Shown here: in pieces, positions 2,397-30,187 of the stretch
Numbering within the stretch: the stretch's first letter is position 1
Layout: every line of letters begins with the position of its first letter
NCBI GenBank assembly: GCA_008636105.1
Contig: VSDH01000004.1
Span: 78,122-142,121 of the forward strand
From: Candidatus Scalindua sediminis
GTDB taxonomy: Bacteria > Planctomycetota > Brocadiia > Brocadiales > Scalinduaceae
Direction of reading: 5' to 3'
Length of the DNA stretch: 64,000 nt
Notes under the pieces: model-generated
The model's database searches: none
Told to the model about the DNA's origin: nothing
The model's input: only the letters and a program-made list of their open reading frames with translations
Program-made: the position numbers and the translations under genes

Positions 2397-2804
2397 ATGA
2401 ACGAAGTCTTGTTTAATAAACTCCAGAGATTGAAGGAAGAGGCTAAATATCTTGTTGATAATAAACCTAAGCTTCTTCGCACATTGAAGTCTTCTCTTGA
2501 AACAAAGAAGATTGTTGAGCGTTCTGTGTACCTCTGCGCAGAGATAGTTCTTGATATAGCGGATCTCCTTATTATTAAGAAGGAATACCCAAAACCATCC
2601 TCTTATAGTGATTCTATCTATAAGCTTGGAGACTATGGCCTTATCCCGAAGGAATTTGCCTATAAATTTGTATACATAGCAGGCATTAGAAACTTCCTTG
2701 CACATGACTATCAGAAAAACACCATCCCGGAATTAGAAAAATTTTTGAAATACGGCCTGGAAGACATTGAACATTTTGTAAAAGCAATCGAGGATTTAAC
2801 ATGA
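2397..2804 (+). CDS. hepT: HepT-like HEPN-domain RNase toxin
   Basis: This 135-residue helical protein of the DUF86/HepT family carries the RNase motif R-x4-H-x-Y at residues 98-105 (Arg98, His103, Tyr105). HepT proteins cleave RNA and are silenced when a partner MntA AMPylates the motif tyrosine. The ATG at 2397 is preferred over a GTG at 2385 that lies inside a GTGAATA direct repeat (about 2371-2391). Its stop overlaps the start of the MNT gene by four bases (ATGA), so this is a complete type VII-like toxin-antitoxin pair. It lies just downstream of the WlbA/WbpD-like pair, and a broken pair lies just upstream of it. Confidence 0.85.
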   Translation: MNEVLFNKLQRLKEEAKYLVDNKPKLLRTLKSSLETKKIVERSVYLCAEIVLDIADLLIIKKEYPKPSSYSDSIYKLGDYGLIPKEFAYKFVYIAGIRNFLAHDYQKNTIPELEKFLKYGLEDIEHFVKAIEDLT

Positions 2805-3205
2805 AAGAAGATATAAGGCGTCTAATCGAAACACTTGATAGCAGACCGTCTGTAGCTTTTGCCTATCTATTTGGTTCAAAAGTCAAGGGATTTGCGAATG
2901 ATAGGAGTGATTGGGATATAGCGATATATTTTTCAGAACCATTAGAGGAGGTTGGGCGATGGCCTGCATTTGAACTCGAAGCTGAACTGTCACGAGCTGT
3001 TGGGTCGACTGTTCAGGTAATAGTCCTTAATATTTTTCCACCTCCTATCCTTGGCTTTCAAATAGTGAGTAGTGGTGTTGTGCTTATTGACAGGGATGAG
3101 AACGGCAGAATGGATTTTGAGAATAGGACATTAAGGCAATATTATGACTGGCAATATTTTCTCAAAAGACAAATGAATGCGGAAAGGCGGTCATCTCCCA
3201 TTTAA
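2801..3205 (+). CDS. mntA: MntA-like nucleotidyltransferase antitoxin
   Basis: This 134-residue minimal nucleotidyltransferase has the full active site: Gly25-Ser26, ten residues, then Asp37-Trp-Asp39. In characterised HEPN/MNT systems this enzyme transfers AMP to the HepT tyrosine and neutralises it. The start overlaps the hepT stop in ATGA, giving tight coupling. The C-terminal third (Arg-rich, with a Tyr-Tyr-Asp-Trp-Gln stretch) resembles the tail of the partial MNT protein at the left edge but is clearly diverged. The order here is HEPN then MNT, the reverse of the first locus, so the two are independent acquisitions rather than a tandem duplication. Confidence 0.87.
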   Translation: MKEDIRRLIETLDSRPSVAFAYLFGSKVKGFANDRSDWDIAIYFSEPLEEVGRWPAFELEAELSRAVGSTVQVIVLNIFPPPILGFQIVSSGVVLIDRDENGRMDFENRTLRQYYDWQYFLKRQMNAERRSSPI

Positions 3206-16918: not shown

Positions 16919-18859
16919 ATGAAAATTTATATAGGTAAGAGCTATATTAAGAATTCTATTCAAGTGCTTGATAAAAGTACTGTTATATATGAAGGTGAGA
17001 GTGTCCTTATTTCATCAGATAGGCCTCCATGGATGAATATATCTTTAGGGGAAAGCCGTACTCTGTTTGTTTGGGGACATATTTATGCTATCCACAGTGA
17101 AGATGGTTCATTGACTAAATTTGAACCCATAAACAATGGGCCAACATTGCTCAGAAAATTAATGTTAAAAAATAATGTAAGTACACTTGCTGCGAGGATA
17201 GAGGGACGTTATATTGGGATAGTTACTAATTCAAAGTCAGAAATTACAATTTTTACTGATCTATATAATGAAAAGGATGTGTTTTTTGCACATAATGACA
17301 ATTGCTTGGTAGCTGCCACAAATCTTGAACCCGTCATTAATGCTTTCCCTCATACTCAATACAATCAAACAGCCCTTGCAAGTGTTTTTAACATATATGG
17401 AATGTCTCCACCAAAAAAGCAAACCATATATGAGGGCGTTCATAGGCTAGGCGTTGGTGAAAGAATCGAATATCGGAATGGTCGAATTAAAATATTGTCT
17501 GAGCCATTCACGCCTAGACAAACCGAAGAATACAACGAGAGTGATCTGTGTAAGTATTCAGATATATTCGAGTCTGCTGTTGAAATAAGAAGTTCGAAAG
17601 AGTGTAATTGGGTATATCTTTCAAGTGGATGGGATTCATCGTCTATACTTGCGATGCTTGTTAAGATACACGGCCCAAGTAAAATACGTGCTATTATGGG
17701 GAGATTCAAATATTCAAATAAAAGTGGCATTACAAACAATATTGAAATTACAAGAGCTAAAAAGCTTGCAGAGTACTACTCGGTTCCATTAGAAATAATT
17801 GAAATAGACTATAGTGGTAACGATTTCTTAAATTACATGAGTAATATGAAGCATGAATTAAGAGATAATCATCTCTTTTTGCCATTTAACTATTTTTACA
17901 TGAAGATTGCCAAACATACCGCCAAGCACGGTTCCCAATCACATGCGGTTTTTAACGGAGAGATTAGTGATGGTGCACATAATCTAGGATTTTCACAATT
18001 TGCAACTATCCTAGAACATCCAGATTTAGGCTTTCGTGAATATAGTGATAAAATGGCATCATATCTTTATGGTCCATCATTTTTCAAATCAATCCTTGAT
18101 GGTAATTATATTAATGACTTTGTATATAATGTTCTTTGTACAAGGTCAGGAGCTAGTTTTTATAATGCACATAACCTGAACAACAATGATAAAAAAGCAA
18201 AATATATAGAATCATTCTTTCTTTCACCACAGAGGCTCCCATTGATCAAATTTTCAGAAAATAATATATTAACTGATAAAGGTTTTAGTGAATATGAATC
18301 AACAATGTATGAAACTTATTTTAAGCCGTTCGTTGATAGTGCAACACCAGAGACATTGTATTCATGGATACTACATTTATATAATAGTTTTCATTGGCAA
18401 TGTGGAACTGTAAAAGGTTTAATGCATGGGCTTGATTGTCATAATATGCAAGTTAGTATGCCCTTCTGGGATACACGTATTCAATCATTCCTAAGTGCAA
18501 TGCCTGAGTCTTGGGGTAGGGGGCTAGAGCTTAATCCAACTAAATATCCGTTGAAATGGATGCTTCAAAACAAAGTAGATTATCCTTCCCACTTACAAGT
18601 AGGTCCTCATTCATATTTATACGACGTTAATCCTAATTGGCATGTATTTTCAGATTTAATATATGGATCAGATGCTAAGAGTTACTTTAAAGATATTATT
18701 CATGACTATAAATATGAAAATATTCTTAGTGAAAGCAACTTCAACTTATCATATCTTAAAAAAATAACAGATGACTATTGCAATGATGTCGAGGTCACAG
18801 GACAGCAACGATGCGATCTTTTTACATTGATAGGGCTTTCATTAGTAGGATGGTATTGA
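16919..18859 (+). CDS. Asparagine-synthetase-like protein without glutaminase cysteine
   Basis: The 646-residue protein has an N-terminal class-II amidotransferase-like fold and a PP-loop ATP-pyrophosphatase domain with Leu-Ser235-Ser-Gly237-Trp-Asp239-Ser240. Residue 2 is Lys instead of the catalytic Cys2, so it cannot hydrolyse glutamine in the usual way. Free ammonia, another amine, or ATP-dependent adenylation without amidation are possible. Related proteins amidate uronic acids in O-antigens or close beta-lactams; the glycan context favours the former. It is separated from its neighbours by 84 and 375 bases, so it may be its own transcription unit. Confidence 0.78.
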   Translation: MKIYIGKSYIKNSIQVLDKSTVIYEGESVLISSDRPPWMNISLGESRTLFVWGHIYAIHSEDGSLTKFEPINNGPTLLRKLMLKNNVSTLAARIEGRYIGIVTNSKSEITIFTDLYNEKDVFFAHNDNCLVAATNLEPVINAFPHTQYNQTALASVFNIYGMSPPKKQTIYEGVHRLGVGERIEYRNGRIKILSEPFTPRQTEEYNESDLCKYSDIFESAVEIRSSKECNWVYLSSGWDSSSILAMLVKIHGPSKIRAIMGRFKYSNKSGITNNIEITRAKKLAEYYSVPLEIIEIDYSGNDFLNYMSNMKHELRDNHLFLPFNYFYMKIAKHTAKHGSQSHAVFNGEISDGAHNLGFSQFATILEHPDLGFREYSDKMASYLYGPSFFKSILDGNYINDFVYNVLCTRSGASFYNAHNLNNNDKKAKYIESFFLSPQRLPLIKFSENNILTDKGFSEYESTMYETYFKPFVDSATPETLYSWILHLYNSFHWQCGTVKGLMHGLDCHNMQVSMPFWDTRIQSFLSAMPESWGRGLELNPTKYPLKWMLQNKVDYPSHLQVGPHSYLYDVNPNWHVFSDLIYGSDAKSYFKDIIHDYKYENILSESNFNLSYLKKITDDYCNDVEVTGQQRCDLFTLIGLSLVGWY

Positions 18860-19969: not shown

Positions 19970-21424
19970 GTGCATATATTATTTATCTATACTAATAAAA
20001 ATAGTCAATATAGAATACCCGCAGGCCCTGCTATCATATTAAGAGTATTAAATAATCTTGGCCATAGCGTTAGCCTGTATGATACTACATTTACTAATAG
20101 TAATTATCAAGAAAGCACCGATACTCGAGAAAAACAAAGAACTGTTTTAAAAACGGATATGCAAAATTATATTGGAAAAATCAAGCAAGTTAATCATAGT
20201 GATGAACTGCAGGAAATATTAAACAATAAAAAACCAGATTTAGTGTTTATGAGCACTGCAGCACATAACTATAAATTCGGCATTAGCCTACTGAAGATAA
20301 TTAAAAGTCATGGTGATTATACAACGTTAGTCGGCGGAATATTTCCTACAATTTGTCCCGACATTGTTATAAATAATGAATATGTTGATATGGTCTGTGT
20401 CGGAGAAGGTGAAGAAGCAATTATTGATCTTTGTGAAAGATTTGGAAGGCCAAAAGATCGCAATAATAATGGTAAAGCATATCCGCTACCATCATCTGAA
20501 ATACCGAACATTTGGATCAAACAAGATGGTGTTGTATACCGATCTAGGCCAAAACTTGTACATAACTTAGATAAAGTTCCATATCAAGACTGGTCTCTAT
20601 TTGATAAACGTCATTTATGGAAGGCATTTGTTGGCAAAGTCTGGAAATCTGGCGGTTTTGAATTAAGTCGCGGTTGTCCACAACATTGCAACTTTTGTGT
20701 AGAAGACCAAAAAAGGTTGAACACAATTGGTGATGGAACGTGGCGAAGAGAAAAGACACCTGGAGCTGTTATTAAAGAGTTGAAGTATTTTATAGAAAAA
20801 TATGATCTTGAATTAATAACATTTGGTGATATGAATTTTTTATCCGGCTCAGTTGAGAAAACAAGGCGATTTTCTGAATTATACAATAATGAAATTGGGC
20901 TTCCCTTTATAATACAAAGTGGGCCGGAAACCTTAATTAATGAAGAAAAGGTAAAGCTTCTCAAAGAGATGAACTGCGTGACGATCAGTATAGGAGTAGA
21001 AAGTGGTGTAGAAGAAGATCGTCAGAGGGTACTGAATAAAAAGGTATCAAATGCGCATATTATTAAAGCATTTGAAAATGCTAAAAAATATAAAATAAGA
21101 ACTACCGCAAATTATATAATAGGCCTACCTTTTGATACCGAAGAGAAGATTAAAAGATCCATCGAGTTTAATCTGAAAATCATGCCTGACAGTATTGATG
21201 TTTTTTATTTCATTCCGTTTTTAGGGACACATCTGTTCGAAATCGCTCAGGCAGAAGGTCTTCTACCTGAGCATGATGAAATTTCTGCAGATATATTAAG
21301 TGAACCATATCTAGAATTACCTGGGTTATCTAAAAGAAGAATGGTAGGTCTTCACGCAGAGTTTGTTGAAAGATACAATGAACGTTTCGCTAAGCTAGGC
21401 ATGCAACATGGCTTATTTGAATAA
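19970..21424 (+). CDS. B12-binding-domain radical SAM protein
   Basis: The 484-residue protein has an N-terminal cobalamin-binding Rossmann-like domain (about residues 1-150, with Val-Gly-Gly-Ile-Phe-Pro-Thr and Gly-Glu-Gly-Glu-Glu-Ala) and a radical-SAM core with the cluster motif Cys-x3-Cys-x2-Cys in Ser-Arg-Gly-Cys-Pro-Gln-His-Cys-Asn-Phe-Cys near residue 230. Such enzymes methylate unactivated carbons or phosphinates, or carry out rearrangements. In polysaccharide loci their substrates are mostly unknown. Translation starts at GTG 19970; no ATG fits the N-terminus. Confidence 0.88.
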   Translation: MHILFIYTNKNSQYRIPAGPAIILRVLNNLGHSVSLYDTTFTNSNYQESTDTREKQRTVLKTDMQNYIGKIKQVNHSDELQEILNNKKPDLVFMSTAAHNYKFGISLLKIIKSHGDYTTLVGGIFPTICPDIVINNEYVDMVCVGEGEEAIIDLCERFGRPKDRNNNGKAYPLPSSEIPNIWIKQDGVVYRSRPKLVHNLDKVPYQDWSLFDKRHLWKAFVGKVWKSGGFELSRGCPQHCNFCVEDQKRLNTIGDGTWRREKTPGAVIKELKYFIEKYDLELITFGDMNFLSGSVEKTRRFSELYNNEIGLPFIIQSGPETLINEEKVKLLKEMNCVTISIGVESGVEEDRQRVLNKKVSNAHIIKAFENAKKYKIRTTANYIIGLPFDTEEKIKRSIEFNLKIMPDSIDVFYFIPFLGTHLFEIAQAEGLLPEHDEISADILSEPYLELPGLSKRRMVGLHAEFVERYNERFAKLGMQHGLFE

Positions 21425-21969
21425 TTAATGAATAAAATATTTTCCAACAGTAATATTTGAAAAGTCACAATTGACAATATGGCTATTTGATTGATGAAGC
21501 AGACCAACTATATGGTGGTTTACTAAGTGTGACACGTATATGTAGCGGGATTGGTTGTTCGGATACTCAAGTAGAATACCGATTATCATTTACGCTCACA
21601 GAGGAACTTTATTCATCTGTTTATGTTGTAAACCAGCTAGAAGCGTTCTCTTATCTCTGCCTTATGACTCGGCTTGTCCAAGACGTTTCAGTCTGAAGTA
21701 TTTTGAATCCTTGGCTGACAATTGCGGTAAAGACAAGGCAGTAGCCGGACAAGTAGAACGTATATGAGCAATGTGATTGGCCTTTGTCTGGTGGAATGGT
21801 GCAAGGTCTATCTGCTATCGTGACATTTATCCAAAAAAGGGAGCAACTCAGGGGCTTCTACGACTGATACGTTTTCAGTTTGTTTGTGGCAGTTGATTCT
21901 GAAAGAGAGATTAAGCTTTGATAAGTAGGGATAACAAATTCACAAACAACAACCATATTGAGACATTCA
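21425..21969. other. 545-base stretch without a recognisable gene
   Basis: Several short frames of 60-70 codons exist (for example 21487-21696 and 21555-21767) but none resembles a known domain, and they overlap one another. The base composition and broken frames suggest decayed coding DNA, possibly from an insertion sequence. No inverted repeats or IS motifs were identified with confidence. Any promoter for the following ACP-like gene should lie at its right end. Confidence 0.4.
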
Positions 21970-22209
21970 ATGGGAAATCAGATTCAAAAAAGGATCAAGG
22001 GAACCATGTCTGCGATTTTTAATGTGCCTGTTGATGAAATCGACAGTACTGCATCTCCTCGCACTATAAAATCATGGAAAGGAAAAAATCACCTAAAAAT
22101 GGTGGAAGCGTTGGAGTCTGAATTTGATATAAAATTTGAAGAATGTGAAATAGAAACACTCGTCAGTTATAAAGTCATTAAAGCAACTGTTATGGCTTAC
22201 GTTAGCTAG
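21970..22209 (+). CDS. Acyl-carrier-protein-like protein lacking the attachment serine
   Basis: The 79-residue acidic helical protein resembles acyl carrier proteins: a first helix, then Val-Pro-Val-Asp-Glu-Ile, then the region around Ser-Trp-Lys-Gly-Lys-Asn-His-Leu-Lys-Met, then Leu-Glu-Ser-Glu-Phe-Asp-Ile. In true carriers the central element is Trp-Asp-Ser-Leu-x-His-Leu, where Ser holds phosphopantetheine. Here Asp-Ser-Leu is Lys-Gly-Lys, so the prosthetic group cannot attach at the usual place. The ATG at 21970 is preferred to a TTG at 21958. It is followed after 17 bases by an SGNH-like protein, suggesting a small acyl-transfer or regulatory module. Confidence 0.7.
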   Translation: MGNQIQKRIKGTMSAIFNVPVDEIDSTASPRTIKSWKGKNHLKMVEALESEFDIKFEECEIETLVSYKVIKATVMAYVS

Positions 22210-22226
22210 TTCAATCCTATATTAAG

Positions 22227-22889
22227 ATGAGCAAATTTTTAATTCTTACCGATTCCATAGGTAATCCAAGGAGTTTTCCTGTTTCTGAAATTACGCAATT
22301 AGAGGAAACTTACTCATACATAATTAGAAATAATTTTAAAAACTCTACGTTTTGGCAATTATCATATGGTAATGTCTCCACCGAACAACTTTTTAGCCAG
22401 GCTGCCGGATATCTTTCTAATTGGGAGCCGGACATTATCATTATTCATTCTGGAATTATCGATTCGCGACCGGAAGCGTTTACGGAATTTCAAAAAACCG
22501 TCATCAATAAACTCACGGGACGTTTCGTATTCGGAAAGATAAAAAAATATGTGTTTCACCCGGCTCTGATTAGACACAGGCAGGTGTACCGGGTATCGAA
22601 AGCGAGATTTAGAAAAACGGCAAAAAAGATAAAACTGCTATTCGGGCAATCTAAAATACTTTGGCTGGAAATCTGTGTCGCAGATGGTTATGAAAGCGCT
22701 CGCCCGGGAGCGAACAAACGAATGGAGGCTTACAATAATATCATTAAAGAGATATACGGCAAGGATTTTGTCAAGATTAAGGAAAAGATACTTGAAGTCG
22801 ATGGTTTCAATGTTGACAACCTGCACTGGAACAAGAGTGGCCACCGGGCCGTGGCTGATATAATCCTTGACAGGATTAATGCTGCCTGA
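22227..22889 (+). CDS. SGNH/GDSL-like hydrolase or acyltransferase
   Basis: The 220-residue protein starts with Leu-Ile-Leu-Thr-Asp-Ser-Ile-Gly, a GDS-like block I containing the potential nucleophile Ser. It ends with Asp-Asn-Leu-His-Trp-Asn-Lys-Ser-Gly-His, the block V Asp-x2-His. A Gly/Asn block is less clear (Ile-His-Ser-Gly-Ile-Ile-Asp). No signal peptide or membrane helix is visible, so it is probably cytoplasmic. The family includes sugar O-acetylesterases and O-acyltransferases. Adjacency to the ACP-like gene favours a role in acyl decoration. Confidence 0.72.
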   Translation: MSKFLILTDSIGNPRSFPVSEITQLEETYSYIIRNNFKNSTFWQLSYGNVSTEQLFSQAAGYLSNWEPDIIIIHSGIIDSRPEAFTEFQKTVINKLTGRFVFGKIKKYVFHPALIRHRQVYRVSKARFRKTAKKIKLLFGQSKILWLEICVADGYESARPGANKRMEAYNNIIKEIYGKDFVKIKEKILEVDGFNVDNLHWNKSGHRAVADIILDRINAA

Positions 22890-22949
22890 ACACAGGTGAT
22901 ATTGCCATTATTGATTAACAGCAGATTAAATGAACGAGTAACAAAATAG

Positions 22950-23951
22950 ATGATTATGGACAGAATCTACATTATCGCCGAAATGGCCTGCTCTCACGAA
23001 GGGGAGTTAGAACGTGCATTAAAGATTATCGACGGCGCTGCAAAGGCCAGCGCAGATGCTGTTCAATTGCAGATATGGTCATTGTCTCATATGATGGCGC
23101 CTCAGAGGAAGGAATACGAACTGCTGAAAAAAATTGAATTGTCACATGGTAATTGGACTGAGTTGGTGAAATATACCAGGAAAAAATATCCTGAAATGCA
23201 GGTATATGTGTGTGTTTATGAGCACAGTAGTATCGATTTCATTGATAGTATGGGTGTTGATGGATATAAATTGAATTCATCTGATCTTTCTAACCCATTG
23301 GTGCTTGAAAAGGTAGCGGCCACATACAAACCAATAAACTTAAGTATAGGCGCTTCAACAGTAGATGAGATTCAAGCAGCAATTGAGCGTATCCAAGCCG
23401 TTTCTAAATCCAGAATTACACTCATGTATGGACATCAAAACTTTCCCACGTCTATTAAAGATATTCATCTTAATTATATGGTAAAACTAATGGAATTATT
23501 TGAATTGCCCATTGGATATCAAGATCATTGTGATGCCTCAAGTGAAGCTGCATTTTGGATACCTGCGTTGTCTGCAGGGATGGGTGTGAGTATTTTAGAG
23601 AAACATATTACCCATGATCGTTCATTAAAAGGAGTAGATTATGAATCAGCATTAAATCCATGTGAATTTAAACGTTTTGTTAGCATGGTACGAGAATTAG
23701 AATCTGCAAAAGGAATATCAATACCGAAACCACTTTCTCCAGATGAATTGAAGTATAGACAGTTTCAAAAAAAGAGTATTGTAGCTGCACATAATCTAAA
23801 AGTAGGAACACAATTACAAAAAACGGATATTAATTATTTACGTGCTGAGGAACTTGGCATTCCTCCTGATAAAGCGGATAAAATAATAAATAGAATTATT
23901 AAGCGAGACATCATCGCACATCAAATAATTCGAGAGGATGATTTATCATGA
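22950..23951 (+). CDS. NeuB-family synthase paralogue 2 (divergent)
   Basis: This 333-residue protein has the NeuB layout: barrel beginning Ile-Ala-Glu-Met-Ala-Cys-Ser-His-Glu-Gly, metal-site histidines in Gly-Tyr-Gln-Asp-His and Leu-Glu-Lys-His-Ile-Thr-His-Asp, and a C-terminal SAF-like domain starting near Lys-Lys-Ser-Ile-Val-Ala-Ala. The usual Ser-Asp-His-Thr is Gln-Asp-His-Cys, and the Gly-Ala-Asn-His-Asn-Gly loop is replaced, so its aldose substrate probably differs from that of LegI. Its stop overlaps the next gene in ATGA. It is the first gene of a second nonulosonate-type block. Confidence 0.8.
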   Translation: MIMDRIYIIAEMACSHEGELERALKIIDGAAKASADAVQLQIWSLSHMMAPQRKEYELLKKIELSHGNWTELVKYTRKKYPEMQVYVCVYEHSSIDFIDSMGVDGYKLNSSDLSNPLVLEKVAATYKPINLSIGASTVDEIQAAIERIQAVSKSRITLMYGHQNFPTSIKDIHLNYMVKLMELFELPIGYQDHCDASSEAAFWIPALSAGMGVSILEKHITHDRSLKGVDYESALNPCEFKRFVSMVRELESAKGISIPKPLSPDELKYRQFQKKSIVAAHNLKVGTQLQKTDINYLRAEELGIPPDKADKIINRIIKRDIIAHQIIREDDLS

Positions 23952-24703
23952 AAATTGCAATATTGATTACTGCTCGCTTAAAGTCAGCGAGATTGCCCTT
24001 GAAAGTAATCAAACCCATTCATGGTCGACCAATGATTATTCATATGTTGAATAGGTTGAAGTTGGCCAAGAAACCTCAAGAAATCATTATTTGTACATCC
24101 ACTTTAGAGCAAGATGATCCGCTAGTGAAAATTGCTGAGGAAGAAGGTGTCAAGTGTTTCCGGGGACATCCTGATGATGTTCTTTTGCGGTTAACGAATG
24201 CCGCTAAAGAACATGATGTTGATTTGGTCATAAACTGTACAGCAGATAATCCCTTTGTTGATCCTGAATATATTGATTACCTTGTTGATTATCATATCAA
24301 AAGCGCCAATGAATTCAGCAAAATTGAAGGGCTACCCTGGGGAACATTTTCATATGCAATTAATCCTTCAGCAATGGAAAGAGCATGTAGCATAAAAGAC
24401 GAAGTTGATACGGAAGTATGGCATGGGTATTTTATGGATACAGGATTGTTTAAGTGGGGTGCATTATTAGTTAATGATCCTGAAGTGGTTTGGCCAGAAC
24501 TCCGTTTAACGGTAGATACTTCAGAAGATTTTCAACTCATCACACGCATTTTTGATGAATTATATGATGGCGAAAAAGTATTTCCTTTACGTGATATCAT
24601 ATCATTATGTCGAAGGAAACCAGAATTACCTGAAATAAATAGTATCATTGAGCAAAAGCCCGGGATTCCTCTTAGAATAAAAAAAGAAATTAGAGGGTTT
24701 TAG
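23948..24703 (+). CDS. Cytidylyltransferase-like protein, SpsF family
   Basis: The 251-residue nucleotidyltransferase starts Ile-Thr-Ala-Arg-Leu-Lys-Ser-Ala-Arg-Leu-Pro-Leu-Lys, the variant signature of the SpsF/CMP-Kdo-like group, and has Thr-Ala-Asp-Asn-Pro-Phe-Val-Asp-Pro as the metal/base-binding segment. SpsF-type genes accompany NeuB-like SpsE genes in spore-coat and surface-glycan loci. The likely reaction is CTP-dependent activation of the product of a neighbouring NeuB homologue. It overlaps the upstream gene by four bases, and the next gene begins at its last base. Confidence 0.83.
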   Translation: MKIAILITARLKSARLPLKVIKPIHGRPMIIHMLNRLKLAKKPQEIIICTSTLEQDDPLVKIAEEEGVKCFRGHPDDVLLRLTNAAKEHDVDLVINCTADNPFVDPEYIDYLVDYHIKSANEFSKIEGLPWGTFSYAINPSAMERACSIKDEVDTEVWHGYFMDTGLFKWGALLVNDPEVVWPELRLTVDTSEDFQLITRIFDELYDGEKVFPLRDIISLCRRKPELPEINSIIEQKPGIPLRIKKEIRGF

Positions 24704-25770
24704 TGCCAAATTCTATAAAAATTGGAAATAATGTAATTGGTAATTGCTCTCCATGTTTTATTATCGCTGAAGCCGGGGTAAACCACAATGGTGATATGGA
24801 AGTTGCCCATAAGCTTATCGATGCTGCGGCAGAAGCAAACGCTGATGCAGTAAAATTTCAAACTTTTAAGACGGAAAATTTAATATTAGATGATATTGAG
24901 AAGGCTTCATATCAAAAAGAGACAACGAATGCAGGTGAGTCACAAACGGAGATGTTAAAAAGATTAGAGATCGATAAAGCCTTTCACGTAGAGCTTTTTA
25001 AATATTGTGAAGAGAAAAACATTCTCTTTCTTTCTACTTGTTATGATGAAGATAGTTTGAACTTACTTGTTGAATTGGGTGTTCCCGCTATCAAGATTGC
25101 TTCGACGGATACAACGAATTTATTGTTTCTTGAGAAAGTTGCGAAAACAAAAAAGCCGGTTATTTTATCGACTGGAATGTGTTCTCTATCAGAGATTGAA
25201 CAGGCATATCAGTGTTTAAAAGAAAATGGATGCAAAGAACTTGCTCTTCTCAAGTGTACTTCAAACTATCCAACGGATCCTAAGGACGTTAATTTAAACG
25301 CCATGGTAACAATGAATAATAGTTTTGAAGCCGTTATCGGGTTTTCGGATCACACTGAAGGAGTGGGCGCTTCTCCATATGCCGTTGCGATGGGAGCAAG
25401 TATTATCGAGAAACATTTTACCTTGGATAAAAGATTGGAGGGGCCAGATCATCAAGCATCTCTTTCTCCAGATGAACTTCTTTTGTGGGTCAAGGAAATA
25501 CGAAAAGTGGAACAAATGCTGGGAAGTAGCGAGATATTGTCTACTGAAAGCGAAAAAGAAGCAAAGAAAGCGTTACAAAAGCATCTGGTTTCCAAGATTG
25601 ATCTTAAAAAAGGAGATACAGTAACTCGTAAAAGTATTGCCGCCAAAAGAACGGGCGGAAAGGGAATCAGTGCATTAGAGTTTTATAATGTACTAGGCGC
25701 TACGTTAACATGCGATCTGTCTCAGGACCGGCCTATCGAGGAATCGCATTTAGAGAAGAGAGTGAAATGA
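24703..25770 (+). CDS. NeuB-family nonulosonate synthase paralogue 3
   Basis: The 355-residue enzyme has canonical motifs: Ala-Glu-Ala-Gly-Val-Asn-His-Asn-Gly at about residues 22-30, Gly-Phe-Ser-Asp-His-Thr and Glu-Lys-His-Phe-Thr-Leu-Asp, then a SAF domain ending with Gly-Ile-Ser-Ala-Leu-Glu-Phe. It is closer to standard NeuB/LegI than the paralogue at 22950. Start is GTG at 24703, sharing one base with the previous stop. Since LegI at 11535 already completes the first operon, this copy probably makes a different nonulosonate, with the two downstream enzymes processing its sugar precursor. Confidence 0.87.
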   Translation: MPNSIKIGNNVIGNCSPCFIIAEAGVNHNGDMEVAHKLIDAAAEANADAVKFQTFKTENLILDDIEKASYQKETTNAGESQTEMLKRLEIDKAFHVELFKYCEEKNILFLSTCYDEDSLNLLVELGVPAIKIASTDTTNLLFLEKVAKTKKPVILSTGMCSLSEIEQAYQCLKENGCKELALLKCTSNYPTDPKDVNLNAMVTMNNSFEAVIGFSDHTEGVGASPYAVAMGASIIEKHFTLDKRLEGPDHQASLSPDELLLWVKEIRKVEQMLGSSEILSTESEKEAKKALQKHLVSKIDLKKGDTVTRKSIAAKRTGGKGISALEFYNVLGATLTCDLSQDRPIEESHLEKRVK

Positions 25771-26656: not shown

Positions 26657-28120
26657 ATGCGGAAGATAGATAGAAAGAAAATTGATGAAATATGCATTTC
26701 CCCTGCTAGTACGATCAGGCAGGCAATGGAGGTTGTTGATAGAGGTGAAATAGGAGCAGTGTTTATTGTCGATGATCAGACGAGGAGTTTCTTAGGTCTT
26801 ATAACAGATGGTGATATTCGAAGGGCTATATTAAAAGGAGGTAATCTAGATACTGAAATAGAACTTGTTGAAAGGCCAAGAACTAAAACGGCAACTGAGG
26901 TCATGAAAACTGAAGAAATATCTGAAATGTTTGATGGAAAAGTGCGCATCATTCCGGTTCTTGATCTAGAAAACAAAATTGTTGATATTGCTTTATACGA
27001 TCAGCGGATCCATTTACCTGTTGCCGAACCGTCATTAGGCGAAAAGGAGTTATCGTATGTTAGCGATTGCATCATTTCTAATTGGATATCTTCAACTGGA
27101 AAGTATGTGAATAAATTTGAGTCCTTATTTGCTGATTATTGCGGCTCACGATACGCTGTGGCAACAAGCAATGGCACAAGTGCTTTACATCTGGCTTTAT
27201 TGGCTTTGGGTATTCATCAGGGCGATGAAGTAATAGTCCCAAGTCTTACGTTTATTGCAACAGCCAATGCCGTTACTTATACCGGAGCTAAGCCTGTATT
27301 TGTTGATAGTGAACCAGAAACATGGAATATTGATCCGAATCTAATTGAAGAAGCTATCTCTCCGAAGACAAAAGCTATTATACCTGTTCATTTGTACGGG
27401 CATCCTGCGGATATGGATCCTATTCTTGAAATTGCACGTTCTCATAATTTGGCGGTGATTGAGGATGCCGCCGAAGCTCATGGGGCAGAATATAAGGGGA
27501 AGAAAGTTGGAGGTATTGGCGATATTGGCATTTTTAGTTTTTATGGGAATAAAATAATTACAACGGGTGAAGGGGGGATGATCGTAACAAATAATTCCGA
27601 TTTTGCTGAACGAATAAAGCTATTTCGTAATCATGGAATGTTGCCTTCGAAACGCTACTGGCACCCTGTTCTTGGATATAATTATAGATTAACAAACATT
27701 CAGGCTGCTATCGGAGTCGCGCAAGTTGAAAGAGTTGAGTCGATTATAAAAGCAAAATTGGATATCGCTGATCGGTATGAAAAGCAGTTAGGTTGTGTTA
27801 AAGGGATTATATGTCCGCCAAAAGCAAAATGGGCAAAAAATGTTTACTGGTTGTATTCTATTCTTGTGGAAGAAGAATATGGAATAAGCAGAGATGAATT
27901 GATAAAAGAATTGAGTTCAATGGGTATAGATACACGCCCACTTTTCCCACCTATACATATGCAACCAATTTATAATACCGGACAGAATTTAGAGGTTGCA
28001 GGGGGGCTTGCATCTCGTGGATTAAGTCTCCCTGGTTCGTCAGGTTTACAGTATCACGAAGTTGATCGAGTTTGTCGTGCTATTAGCACTATACAAAACA
28101 GAGTGATAAATACGAGATAA
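26657..28120 (+). CDS. CBS-pair fused to DegT/DnrJ/EryC1 aminotransferase
   Basis: Residues 1-120 form two CBS motifs (Phe-Leu-Gly-Leu-Ile-Thr-Asp-Gly-Asp-Ile-Arg-Arg). Residues 125-487 form a complete sugar aminotransferase with Ser-Asn-Gly-Thr-Ser-Ala, Glu-Asp-Ala-Ala-Glu-Ala-His and the PLP lysine in Phe-Tyr-Gly-Asn-Lys-Ile-Ile-Thr-Thr-Gly-Glu-Gly-Gly. LegC-type aminotransferases lack the CBS part. The same regulatory module heads the nucleotidyltransferase at 14222, so both nonulosonate blocks may respond to one nucleotide signal. The upstream GGAG near 26645 gives a good ribosome site. Confidence 0.88.
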   Translation: MRKIDRKKIDEICISPASTIRQAMEVVDRGEIGAVFIVDDQTRSFLGLITDGDIRRAILKGGNLDTEIELVERPRTKTATEVMKTEEISEMFDGKVRIIPVLDLENKIVDIALYDQRIHLPVAEPSLGEKELSYVSDCIISNWISSTGKYVNKFESLFADYCGSRYAVATSNGTSALHLALLALGIHQGDEVIVPSLTFIATANAVTYTGAKPVFVDSEPETWNIDPNLIEEAISPKTKAIIPVHLYGHPADMDPILEIARSHNLAVIEDAAEAHGAEYKGKKVGGIGDIGIFSFYGNKIITTGEGGMIVTNNSDFAERIKLFRNHGMLPSKRYWHPVLGYNYRLTNIQAAIGVAQVERVESIIKAKLDIADRYEKQLGCVKGIICPPKAKWAKNVYWLYSILVEEEYGISRDELIKELSSMGIDTRPLFPPIHMQPIYNTGQNLEVAGGLASRGLSLPGSSGLQYHEVDRVCRAISTIQNRVINTR

Positions 28121-28135
28121 GGAAAATATCTTTTT

Positions 28136-30187
28136 ATGAAAACGGTTTGGGTTGACTTGTTGTGTTTGAGATCTGTCTTGAAAATATGCTTTCTTTCGCG
28201 CAGAATCGCAATCAAAGAAATATTTTTTATAAACCGGACCAAGTTTTTCTATAGGTTTTTTATTAATGTAATTGTCAAATTGGTTAAAAAGCCTGTTAGA
28301 CAAGTGGATTGGATTGCTGAAGGAGATGAAAAAATAGACGGTATTTCTTTGTATGAAACAATTCAATTAAGATTAAAAGATATTTTAGATAAATGGGTTT
28401 CCAAAGAAAATATTTCTAATGAGAGCCAGTTATTTTGTGAGAAATACAAATATAATTTAATCAAGTTTAAAGAACATGTGAAAGAAGCTGCTTATAGGCA
28501 TATATTCAGATTAGTTGAAATAAGCGTTTTAGCCGAGAAAATTTCCGGAAAAGAGAATTCGTTATTTATTCTTCGAAACAGTCCATTTAATAAAGCTGTT
28601 CTACTTTTTTTAAAAGCGGAACAGGTGCGATTCTATAATACCTGGCTTCTTTCGTATAAATTCGTTGAGAAAAGAAAAGAGTATTTTTATGATGGTTTTC
28701 TAAATCAATATTTTTCTAACAGAATCAGGGCTATCTGGTCGATTTGGGTTCTGTATTTATCTCCGTTGGTATCTTCTGTTTTATGTAAATTATTAAGGAA
28801 AAGCATTCCGCAAGAGAATATTAAAAATGTAAATATTGGAGCCGACCTAACTACAATTAGAATCCGTTTAAACGAGAGTAATGATTTATATTGGCTTAAA
28901 GACTCTTCGATTAATCCAAAAACAGTGTGGGGAATTGAACATAGTGACTATGATCAAAAATCAAAAGATGCTTTGAATACGTTAGGCATTCGATATTGCA
29001 AAATTATTAAAAATCCTTTTCGTTTGTTTGCCGCCAAGAAATATTCCAGCGATAGCACTTGCCGGTATTTAACCATCGGGGTAATGGATTCTCTGAAGAT
29101 TGCAGGCAGTATACTAAGATTAACGTTGTCTGCACTATTATGGAATGAGTTGGGTTGGATTCAGTCCAAAAAAGCAACGTATGTACTGGGTACATCATTG
29201 TGGGAATCAATATATAAACAATTAAATATTAGAATATTTTGGAGCATGCATGATATCGATCCGGACAAACTTGTGAAAGCGCAAGCGATAGAAAATTTGG
29301 GAGGGCTTTTTGCGGGAAGCCATCTAAGTAATCAACCTATGTGCAGGGTTGACATTCAGAGATGTTACGATGTTTTTCTGGTGTGGGGGGCGCATTTTGA
29401 ACACGATCTTTATCGGGGCTTCCCATATATGGCTGTGTTCCAGGTGGGATATCCTTCTGATTTTTACTTTGAGGAAAAAAGGGCAAGCGCTCTTAAAATA
29501 TCCAATAAATATCCGGGAAAATTCATTGTATCCTTTCAGGATAATATAATGGCATACGATCTGATGTATAGTAAAAATATGCATTTACAAATTTATAAGA
29601 TGTTTCTTTCAATAATAGAAAATAATCCTAATTTTATATTGTTTCTTAAGCCCAAATACAAATGGACATTCGATAAAATCTTATTAGAGTTACCTGAGCT
29701 GCAACAAGCTATTGATAAAGGGCGAGTTGAAGTTTTCTTAGGAGATACCCCATGGACGAAAGCTGTCCCAGCGACAGTTGGGATGGCAAGCCATTTGGTC
29801 ATCGGGCTGGGAATTAGTTCAGCTGCTGCCGAATGTTTTTTTGCGGGAACAGTGGCTTTCCATGCTGAATTTACAGGTTTTGAGCGGAATACGTTTGCGC
29901 AAGAAGGGCTAAACAAGATTGTGTTTCGAGATGTTGAAAGTCTTGAGCACGCGATTTATCGGCAAATTGAGGGGGAAGGGGTCACTGTTGAGGAGTGTAA
30001 GCCTTATTATGAATCTCTTGACTCTTTTCAAGACGGTAAAGCATATATAAGGACAGGCTATACCATTAAAAGATTACAGGAGAAACTACAGACAGGCTAC
30101 TCTCGAGAAAATGCCGTTAAACAGGTTAAAGATGATTATCAGCAATACTTAACAACATTTCTGGCGGCTTCACAACTAATTTATTAA
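28136..30187 (+). CDS. Large putative surface-polysaccharide transferase (GT-B-like)
   Basis: This 683-residue protein has no clear signal peptide. Its last 250 residues contain His-Asp-Ile-Asp-Pro, a Gly-Ala-His segment, Leu-Lys-Pro-Lys-Tyr and a terminal Val-Ile-Gly-Leu-Gly-Ile-Ser-Ser-Ala-Ala-Ala-Glu with Phe-Ala-Gly-Thr. The latter matches the nucleotide-binding end of GT-B transferases related to capsule and CMP-Kdo enzymes. The N-terminal 280 residues are basic, aromatic-rich and unrecognised. It sits between a nonulosonate block and a KdsB-like gene, which makes it a candidate CMP-sugar transferase. Confidence 0.5.
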   Translation: MKTVWVDLLCLRSVLKICFLSRRIAIKEIFFINRTKFFYRFFINVIVKLVKKPVRQVDWIAEGDEKIDGISLYETIQLRLKDILDKWVSKENISNESQLFCEKYKYNLIKFKEHVKEAAYRHIFRLVEISVLAEKISGKENSLFILRNSPFNKAVLLFLKAEQVRFYNTWLLSYKFVEKRKEYFYDGFLNQYFSNRIRAIWSIWVLYLSPLVSSVLCKLLRKSIPQENIKNVNIGADLTTIRIRLNESNDLYWLKDSSINPKTVWGIEHSDYDQKSKDALNTLGIRYCKIIKNPFRLFAAKKYSSDSTCRYLTIGVMDSLKIAGSILRLTLSALLWNELGWIQSKKATYVLGTSLWESIYKQLNIRIFWSMHDIDPDKLVKAQAIENLGGLFAGSHLSNQPMCRVDIQRCYDVFLVWGAHFEHDLYRGFPYMAVFQVGYPSDFYFEEKRASALKISNKYPGKFIVSFQDNIMAYDLMYSKNMHLQIYKMFLSIIENNPNFILFLKPKYKWTFDKILLELPELQQAIDKGRVEVFLGDTPWTKAVPATVGMASHLVIGLGISSAAAECFFAGTVAFHAEFTGFERNTFAQEGLNKIVFRDVESLEHAIYRQIEGEGVTVEECKPYYESLDSFQDGKAYIRTGYTIKRLQEKLQTGYSRENAVKQVKDDYQQYLTTFLAASQLIY

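Follow-up and report, generated by a model that had tools for sequence, protein, structure and literature searches.

An acyl carrier protein homologue with Lys-Gly-Lys in place of Asp-Ser-Leu beside nonulosonic-acid-type genes of Candidatus Scalindua sediminis

The window analysed here, a stretch of 64,000 nucleotides, holds a short gene, P0001, whose product resembles an acyl carrier protein (ACP) but reads Lys-Gly-Lys at the place where ACPs carry the phosphopantetheine serine, which raises the question of what such a protein could still do in the cell. From the sequence alone, two answers had been put forward, namely a pseudo-carrier tied to an acyl-modifying partner or a carrier using another attachment residue. 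The features of the locus on which our analysis was based are compiled in Table 1.

Table 1. Features in and around the P0001 locus, with positions counted from the first nucleotide of the window
Feature	Position	Strand	Basis
ACP-like gene P0001, 79 aa	21970..22209	+	ORF, ACP profile, predicted fold; phosphopantetheine Ser absent
Lys-Gly-Lys loop (AAA GGA AAA) instead of Asp-Ser-Leu, start of helix II	22078..22086	+	Sequence, alignment with 19 Ser-bearing loci, model
SGNH/GDSL-like gene P0002, 220 aa	22227..22889	+	Weak Pfam match, fold match; starts 17 bases after P0001
NeuB-family synthase, divergent paralogue	22950..23951	+	Pfam NeuB, E 8.7e-47; NCBIfam NeuB_NnaB, 215.6 of 399.65 bits
Cytidylyltransferase	23948..24703	+	Pfam CTP_transf_3, E 1.6e-24
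N-acetylneuraminate synthase type NeuB	24703..25770	+	NCBIfam TIGR03569, 420.8 bits, cut-off of 399.65 exceeded
CBS + DegT/LegC-type aminotransferase	26657..28120	+	Pfam DegT, 445 bits; TIGR04181 LegC family, 388 of 420 bits

The ACP-like gene and its genomic setting

P0001 matched no family in either Pfam or NCBIfam at E values up to 1, so that automatic annotation is likely to overlook it, and it was not found among the three places of its own genome that reach the PF00550 cut-off. Its sequence homology to ACPs was established with a profile of relatives, into which 13 of the 19 loci described below were taken while P0001 itself was left out. This profile recognised P0001 at an E value of 5.1e-19, the next best among the 519 ORFs of the window having an E value of 2.5. 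The AlphaFold2 model of P0001, for which a three-sequence alignment was used as input, showed a mean pLDDT of 93.2, and its four helices (residues 2–17, 38–52, 58–63 and 67–78) are arranged as in ACPs. When this model was submitted to Foldseek, 44 of the 50 PDB rows listed named an ACP or an ACP complex; the other six (8tvt, 9gm6, 5wlw, 8pk8, 5wkp and 8xks) were chains of larger complexes that are not named in the printed titles, with 8tvt_C being designated as acyl carrier protein in a separate listing. Model and fold matches agree on the four-helix ACP fold, in line with the sequence-only reading that the carrier fold is kept. P0001 is a genuine ACP homologue and represents an unusual member of an already known class of proteins. 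With the fatty-acid ACP (AcpP, PF00550) it shares the predicted four-helix fold (query-normalised TM-scores of 0.76–0.91 across the 50 listed PDB rows), whereas it differs in lying below Pfam detection, in lacking the phosphopantetheine serine and in its near-neutral charge. Specifically, the net charge of P0001 is 0 versus −2 to −12 in 13 homologues, and its surface is thus unlike that of a typical acidic ACP.

The start of the gene, the ATG at 21970, lies near that of the closest homologue (L002) in the alignments, and the reading frame is intact. In the protein, W36 (22075–22077) is followed by K37-G38-K39 and then by N40-H41-L42-K43-M44. At the site of the Lys-Gly-Lys, homologues have Asp-Ser-(Leu/Ile/Met/Phe), or Glu-Ser-Ile in three AcpP-like ones, so the combination that marks a phosphopantetheine-binding ACP (D/E-S-L/I/M/F) is replaced by K-G-K in P0001, and the absence of the serine already seen from the sequence alone was confirmed. 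Helix II of the model begins at residue 38, that is, at the position of the lost serine. Because of this replacement, and if the assembly is right, P0001 is by its sequence unable to take phosphopantetheine at the usual site or, according to known ACP chemistry, to carry a thioester there. That proviso bears on another explanation, namely that an ACP which is in fact normal was misassembled or misread at the loop. The source assembly is a draft (2.96 Mb, 71 contigs, 93.57% complete), and no second genome with the P0001 locus was found; however, three whole codons differ while the frame is kept, which would not be expected from scattered single-base errors, and we consider an artefact improbable. 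The genome contains one place for an AcpS-type transferase (PF01648) and three canonical ACPs. It also harbours, on contig C14 (186000–195000; locus L067, 1–4602), a CrtI-like oxidoreductase, two FabF-like synthases, FabZ and an ACP in a run, which we take to resemble the gene sets proposed for ladderane lipids.

With regard to the setting, since two NeuB-type genes, a cytidylyltransferase gene and a LegC-type aminotransferase gene are located beside P0001, the region is, on the basis of these assignments, that section of a surface glycan cluster which is concerned with nonulosonic (sialic-acid-like) acids. A gene encoding a xylose-isomerase-like TIM-barrel protein lies between the second NeuB gene and that of the aminotransferase. 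The operon around P0001 had few close relatives in the genomes searched, and the best other match of the first NeuB (22950–23951) in 197 genomes was 36% identical. This divergent synthase adjoins the normal NeuB (24703–25770) and may make a different sugar acid. Scans of the region 21300–24000 for promoters (11 versus 9.7 in shuffled sequence) and terminators (2 versus 1.5) yielded counts near the shuffled level.

Conservation of the serine and partnership with FkbH

In order to place the loss of the serine, P0001 was compared with its homologues in two overlapping genome sets. A search with the single sequence against 197 related genomes gave matches in 15 of them at E values up to 0.01, and a search against 392 genomes of the phylum also gave matches in 15, at E values up to 0.001, with the own genome counted in both cases and nine of the other 14 in the second set being present in the first as well. 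Pooling both sets resulted in 19 homologous loci (L002–L020), some of them weak. The closest, L002, belongs to the same family, is 41% identical (E 8.5e-15) and reads WDSL. The serine was kept in all 19 loci and also in the single match among plasmids (Maritalea plasmid NZ_CP021332; E 3e-3, 25% identity), i.e., in 20 of 20 places, which indicates that its loss in P0001 is derived. No relative devoid of the serine, and hence no conserved pseudo-ACP family, appeared among the matches in the 197 and 392 overlapping genomes. The check proposed with the sequence-only reading, whether homologues consistently lack the serine, thus came out negative, and the intact Asp-Ser-Leu that had been named as evidence against that reading was largely found, with the qualification that the closest homologue is only 41% identical and that nearer orthologues, which could have pointed either way, are absent from the comparison. 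Altogether, P0001 seems to reflect an alteration confined to a single lineage and not the existence of a new family. The same comparison bears on the proposal that an acyl or other group is attached to Lys37 or Lys39. While lysines do flank the site, none of the 19 loci has a lysine at either position, and lysine is not known as a substrate of AcpS-type enzymes; no positive evidence for such an attachment was obtained beyond the position of the two residues, and we judge it very improbable.

Searches were also extended to other collections. P0001 had no match in phages, and of 43 pattern-matching stretches in genome contigs none was confirmed as a close relative. L002 had no match in plasmids. 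In viral contigs, the pattern W-K-G-K-x-H-L was found in 15 stretches, none of them in an ACP-like reading frame. In addition, a genome collection of 84,980 species was scanned with a DNA pattern for ACPs without the serine, which keeps W, H and E-x-E-F/Y, leaves the flanking residues free and asks for G or C as first base of the serine codon, so that it is blind to replacements by Thr, Asn, Lys, Ile, Tyr or Cys (codons starting with A or T). As a control, this pattern matched the window once and none of 100 shuffles. It yielded eight stretches, two of which were ACP-like (L042 and L044) and neither with KGK; in viral contigs, it matched one stretch that was not ACP-like. A counterpart pattern for serine-type codons matched 5 of the 392 phylum genomes, all five with serine, and extrapolation of this rate would put the number of such matches in the larger collection at about a thousand, a rough figure derived from one phylum. 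Judged by these scans, loss of the serine within the scanned ACP motif is rare and the cases found are isolated. Among the titles and abstract openings that made up the literature surveyed, no natural stand-alone ACP lacking the serine in a glycan cluster was found.

The two ACP-like stretches resemble P0001 in that the serine is replaced, but they retain the Asp and a hydrophobic third residue, come from unrelated organisms and are only 17% (L042) and 20% (L044) identical to P0001. In L042 (3421–5496, minus strand, on a contig titled Lokiarchaeota), an ACP with WDAM, i.e., Ala for Ser, directly follows an FkbH gene whose product scores 315 bits against TIGR01686 and has the motif DLDNTLW, suggestive of an independent loss of the serine next to an apparently intact loading enzyme. 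In L044 (5296–7963, minus strand, on a contig titled Oscillospiraceae), an MBOAT gene and a gene for a DHHW-family protein are accompanied by an ACP-like ORF with WDEL (Glu for Ser), which lies two genes after the MBOAT gene and had no PP-binding match in Pfam. Both cases stand alone, and the serine appears to have been lost independently in each.

The homologues of P0001 are commonly associated with FkbH. An FkbH gene adjoins the ACP gene at no fewer than 13 of the 19 loci, which span roughly 3 kb and thus cover the immediate neighbours. A DxDNTLW-type motif identified it in 11 of them, and the TIGR01686 model added L004 and L013. In L002, the gene order is FkbH, ACP and a hexapeptide-type transferase. 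It has been proposed that FkbH enzymes charge paired ACPs with glyceryl groups (PMC7489565). P0001 resembles such FkbH (HAD-IIIC)-paired ACPs, for example those of the glyceryl-ACP systems proposed there, in size, fold and the W-x-x-x-x-H pattern, but it differs from them in the lack of Asp-Ser-Leu and of a detectable FkbH in its genome. No FkbH motif was present in the window, and in a TIGR01686 search of five genomes none was detected in the genome of the window (G000, 93.57% complete) or in G008, in contrast to G015, G019 and G314, which served as positive controls; 14 named control genomes were without a match. As FkbH was thus found neither beside P0001 nor elsewhere in its genome, P0001 appears, as far as can be seen, to be an orphan ACP without an FkbH partner.

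The plasmid match mentioned above provides a further point of comparison. Its ACP domain, 25% identical to P0001, is similar in sequence and likewise has a NeuB-family synthase encoded in its cluster; in contrast to P0001, it reads WDSL, is fused C-terminally to an SDR and follows a HAD-IIIC phosphatase gene, and pseB is present in the cluster. In this stretch of the Maritalea plasmid (L075, 1470–11783), pseB, two sugar-nucleotide enzymes, the HAD-IIIC phosphatase, the SDR-ACP, a DUF4910 protein and the NeuB-family synthase are encoded consecutively, and they may represent, in intact form, a nonulosonate module for acyl modification.

The SGNH-like neighbour

The gene that follows P0001, P0002, had been described from the sequence as an SGNH-like gene lying immediately downstream. 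Its position holds, with only the short gap given in Table 1, but its identity as an SGNH protein turned out to be weak. The match to Pfam Lipase_GDSL_2 reached 22.0 of the 32.9 bits required (E 2.5e-4), and the model was of low confidence (pLDDT 58.6), its best Foldseek matches being TesA-type SGNH enzymes. P0002 shares Ser10, Gly48, Asp197 and His200 with its one homologue, located on a plasmid (L039). The Asn of block III is part of the SGNH motif; at that position, P0002 has Ile and this plasmid homologue Val. SGNH/GDSL hydrolases of the TesA type are thus what P0002 resembles, weakly, in Pfam and comes closest to in fold, whereas it is unlike them in scoring under the Pfam cut-off and in the replacement of the block III Asn. 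The possibility that P0002 corresponds to the N-terminal domain of FkbH (PF21211) was also considered and rejected, with an hhalign probability of 0.2%, which, given the shallow profiles of two and four sequences, is weak counter-evidence.

Conservation of the SGNH neighbour was not borne out. A tblastn search with P0002 against the 19 loci with ACP homologues, in which the flanks extend for about 1.5 kb or less, returned nothing, and among 17 family members and 197 relatives only P0002 itself was retrieved. There was no match in phages and none confirmed in viral contigs. The sole homologue found, 27% identical, is encoded in a nonulosonate cluster of the Sphingomonadaceae plasmid CP099622, and its 16.6-kb locus contained no ACP match. 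Similarly, the one locus inspected (L069) from the plasmid matches of the first NeuB (nine records) and the cytidylyltransferase (11 records) had neither an ACP nor an SGNH match. Within what was searched, the ACP-SGNH pair is, on these sequence comparisons, not a conserved unit, a statement limited by the sparse sampling of operon relatives. The view of P0001 as a pseudo-carrier tied to an acyl-modifying partner is a fair description of P0001 alone; it does not extend to its relatives, which keep the serine and do not share the SGNH neighbour.

Retention or decay of P0001

Whether P0001 is retained or decaying was assessed from the distribution of changes along the gene. At least six base changes in the nine loop bases are required to turn any Asp-Ser-Leu codons into AAA GGA AAA, and the loop of P0001 differs from that of L002 at seven of the nine bases. 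In leave-one-out profiles, P0001 ranked 12th of 14 sequences when the loop was unmasked (63.8 bits) and fourth when it was masked (72.8 bits), the masked score being tilted toward P0001 in two ways, as the homologues had been retrieved with it and its own profile contained 13 training sequences versus 12 for the others. Two of the 21 hydrophobic core columns were broken in P0001, one inside the loop and one outside, compared with 0–2 in the other 13 sequences. Identity between P0001 and L002 at the first, second and third codon positions was 39, 52 and 26 of 75, respectively, a pattern consistent with a constrained coding sequence, most of which history may predate the loss. Changes clustered in the loop, with the rest spared, are what one multi-base event or selection would produce, in contrast to scattered decay. 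Local copying of the word AAAGGAAAA from elsewhere in the window was rejected, since this word occurs twice versus 3.4 times expected by chance.

The concentration of at least six changes within nine bases, in a protein whose remainder scores as a normal ACP, favours the reading that we tentatively put first, albeit at somewhat less than even confidence: that P0001 is an FkbH-partner-type ACP in which Asp-Ser-Leu was converted into Lys-Gly-Lys in one lineage and which was kept as a cofactor-free docking protein. According to this reading, the phosphopantetheine site of an ancestral FkbH-partner-type ACP would have been replaced in this lineage, and the fold would have been kept because P0001 still docks, without the cofactor, onto an enzyme encoded in this nonulosonate cluster. 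P0002, encoded 17 bases downstream, would be the first candidate for this partner, and the extra positive charge of the loop together with the near-neutral net charge would alter what P0001 binds. This explanation is at its weakest in the docking step. In its favour, we counted the absence of the serine with the fold kept, the intact frame and the short gap to the next gene; for the FkbH-partner type, we counted FkbH beside at least 13 of the 19 relatives and the HAD-IIIC phosphatase gene preceding the ACP-bearing gene in the pseB/NeuB cluster of the plasmid.

The main competing explanation, which appears nearly as likely, is that P0001 is a recent relic: an FkbH-ACP pair would have arrived with the glycan cluster, FkbH would have been lost, and the then useless ACP would have lost its site, having no function now and a fold that persists as the loss is recent. 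This would be in accordance with the lack of a detectable FkbH in the genome, with the absence of an orthologue showing the same change, with the 545 bases upstream of P0001 (21425–21969), where the two ORFs tested matched no Pfam family, and with the scarcity of close relatives of the cluster genes in the genomes searched. On the other hand, the ORF is intact, and the clustering of changes in the loop with the rest scoring normally is unlike scattered decay, unless one multi-base event was responsible. Against docking, we also counted that no orthologue shares the loss of the serine, that L042 and L044 are isolated losses, that no conserved ACP-SGNH pair was found, and the bias of the masked score. 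Furthermore, in Staphylococcus aureus DltC, the substitutions Ser36Ala, Asp35Ala and Phe37Ala are each described in PMC12838833 as abolishing stimulation of the partner DltA, which implies that losing the serine loop can destroy the effect on a partner. On balance, a kept docking role was slightly favoured over a recent relic, with little weight given to lysine attachment. A more specific version, in which an SGNH enzyme that modifies nonulosonic acids has recruited the cofactor-free ACP as its docking or regulatory subunit, the basic Lys-Gly-Lys loop being part of the new interface where the phosphopantetheine site used to be, seems unlikely to us. If P0001 is kept for docking alone, it would provide a clean natural case in which the scaffold role of an ACP is separated from its carrier role; were P0001 a relic instead, it would exemplify the disintegration of acyl-modification modules during the reshuffling of glycan clusters.

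Further observations were made elsewhere in the window. The glycan cluster includes an asparagine-synthase-like protein (16919–18859, plus strand), of which Pfam Asn_synthase covers residues 215–351 only. An ORF of 683 aa (28136–30187, plus strand) had no Pfam match at an E value of 0.01. Moreover, overlapping genes for a HepT-like (HEPN) ribonuclease and a nucleotidyltransferase (2385–2804 and 2801–3205, plus strand) were identified by Pfam, a pair that presumably has the make-up of a HepT-MntA type toxin-antitoxin system.
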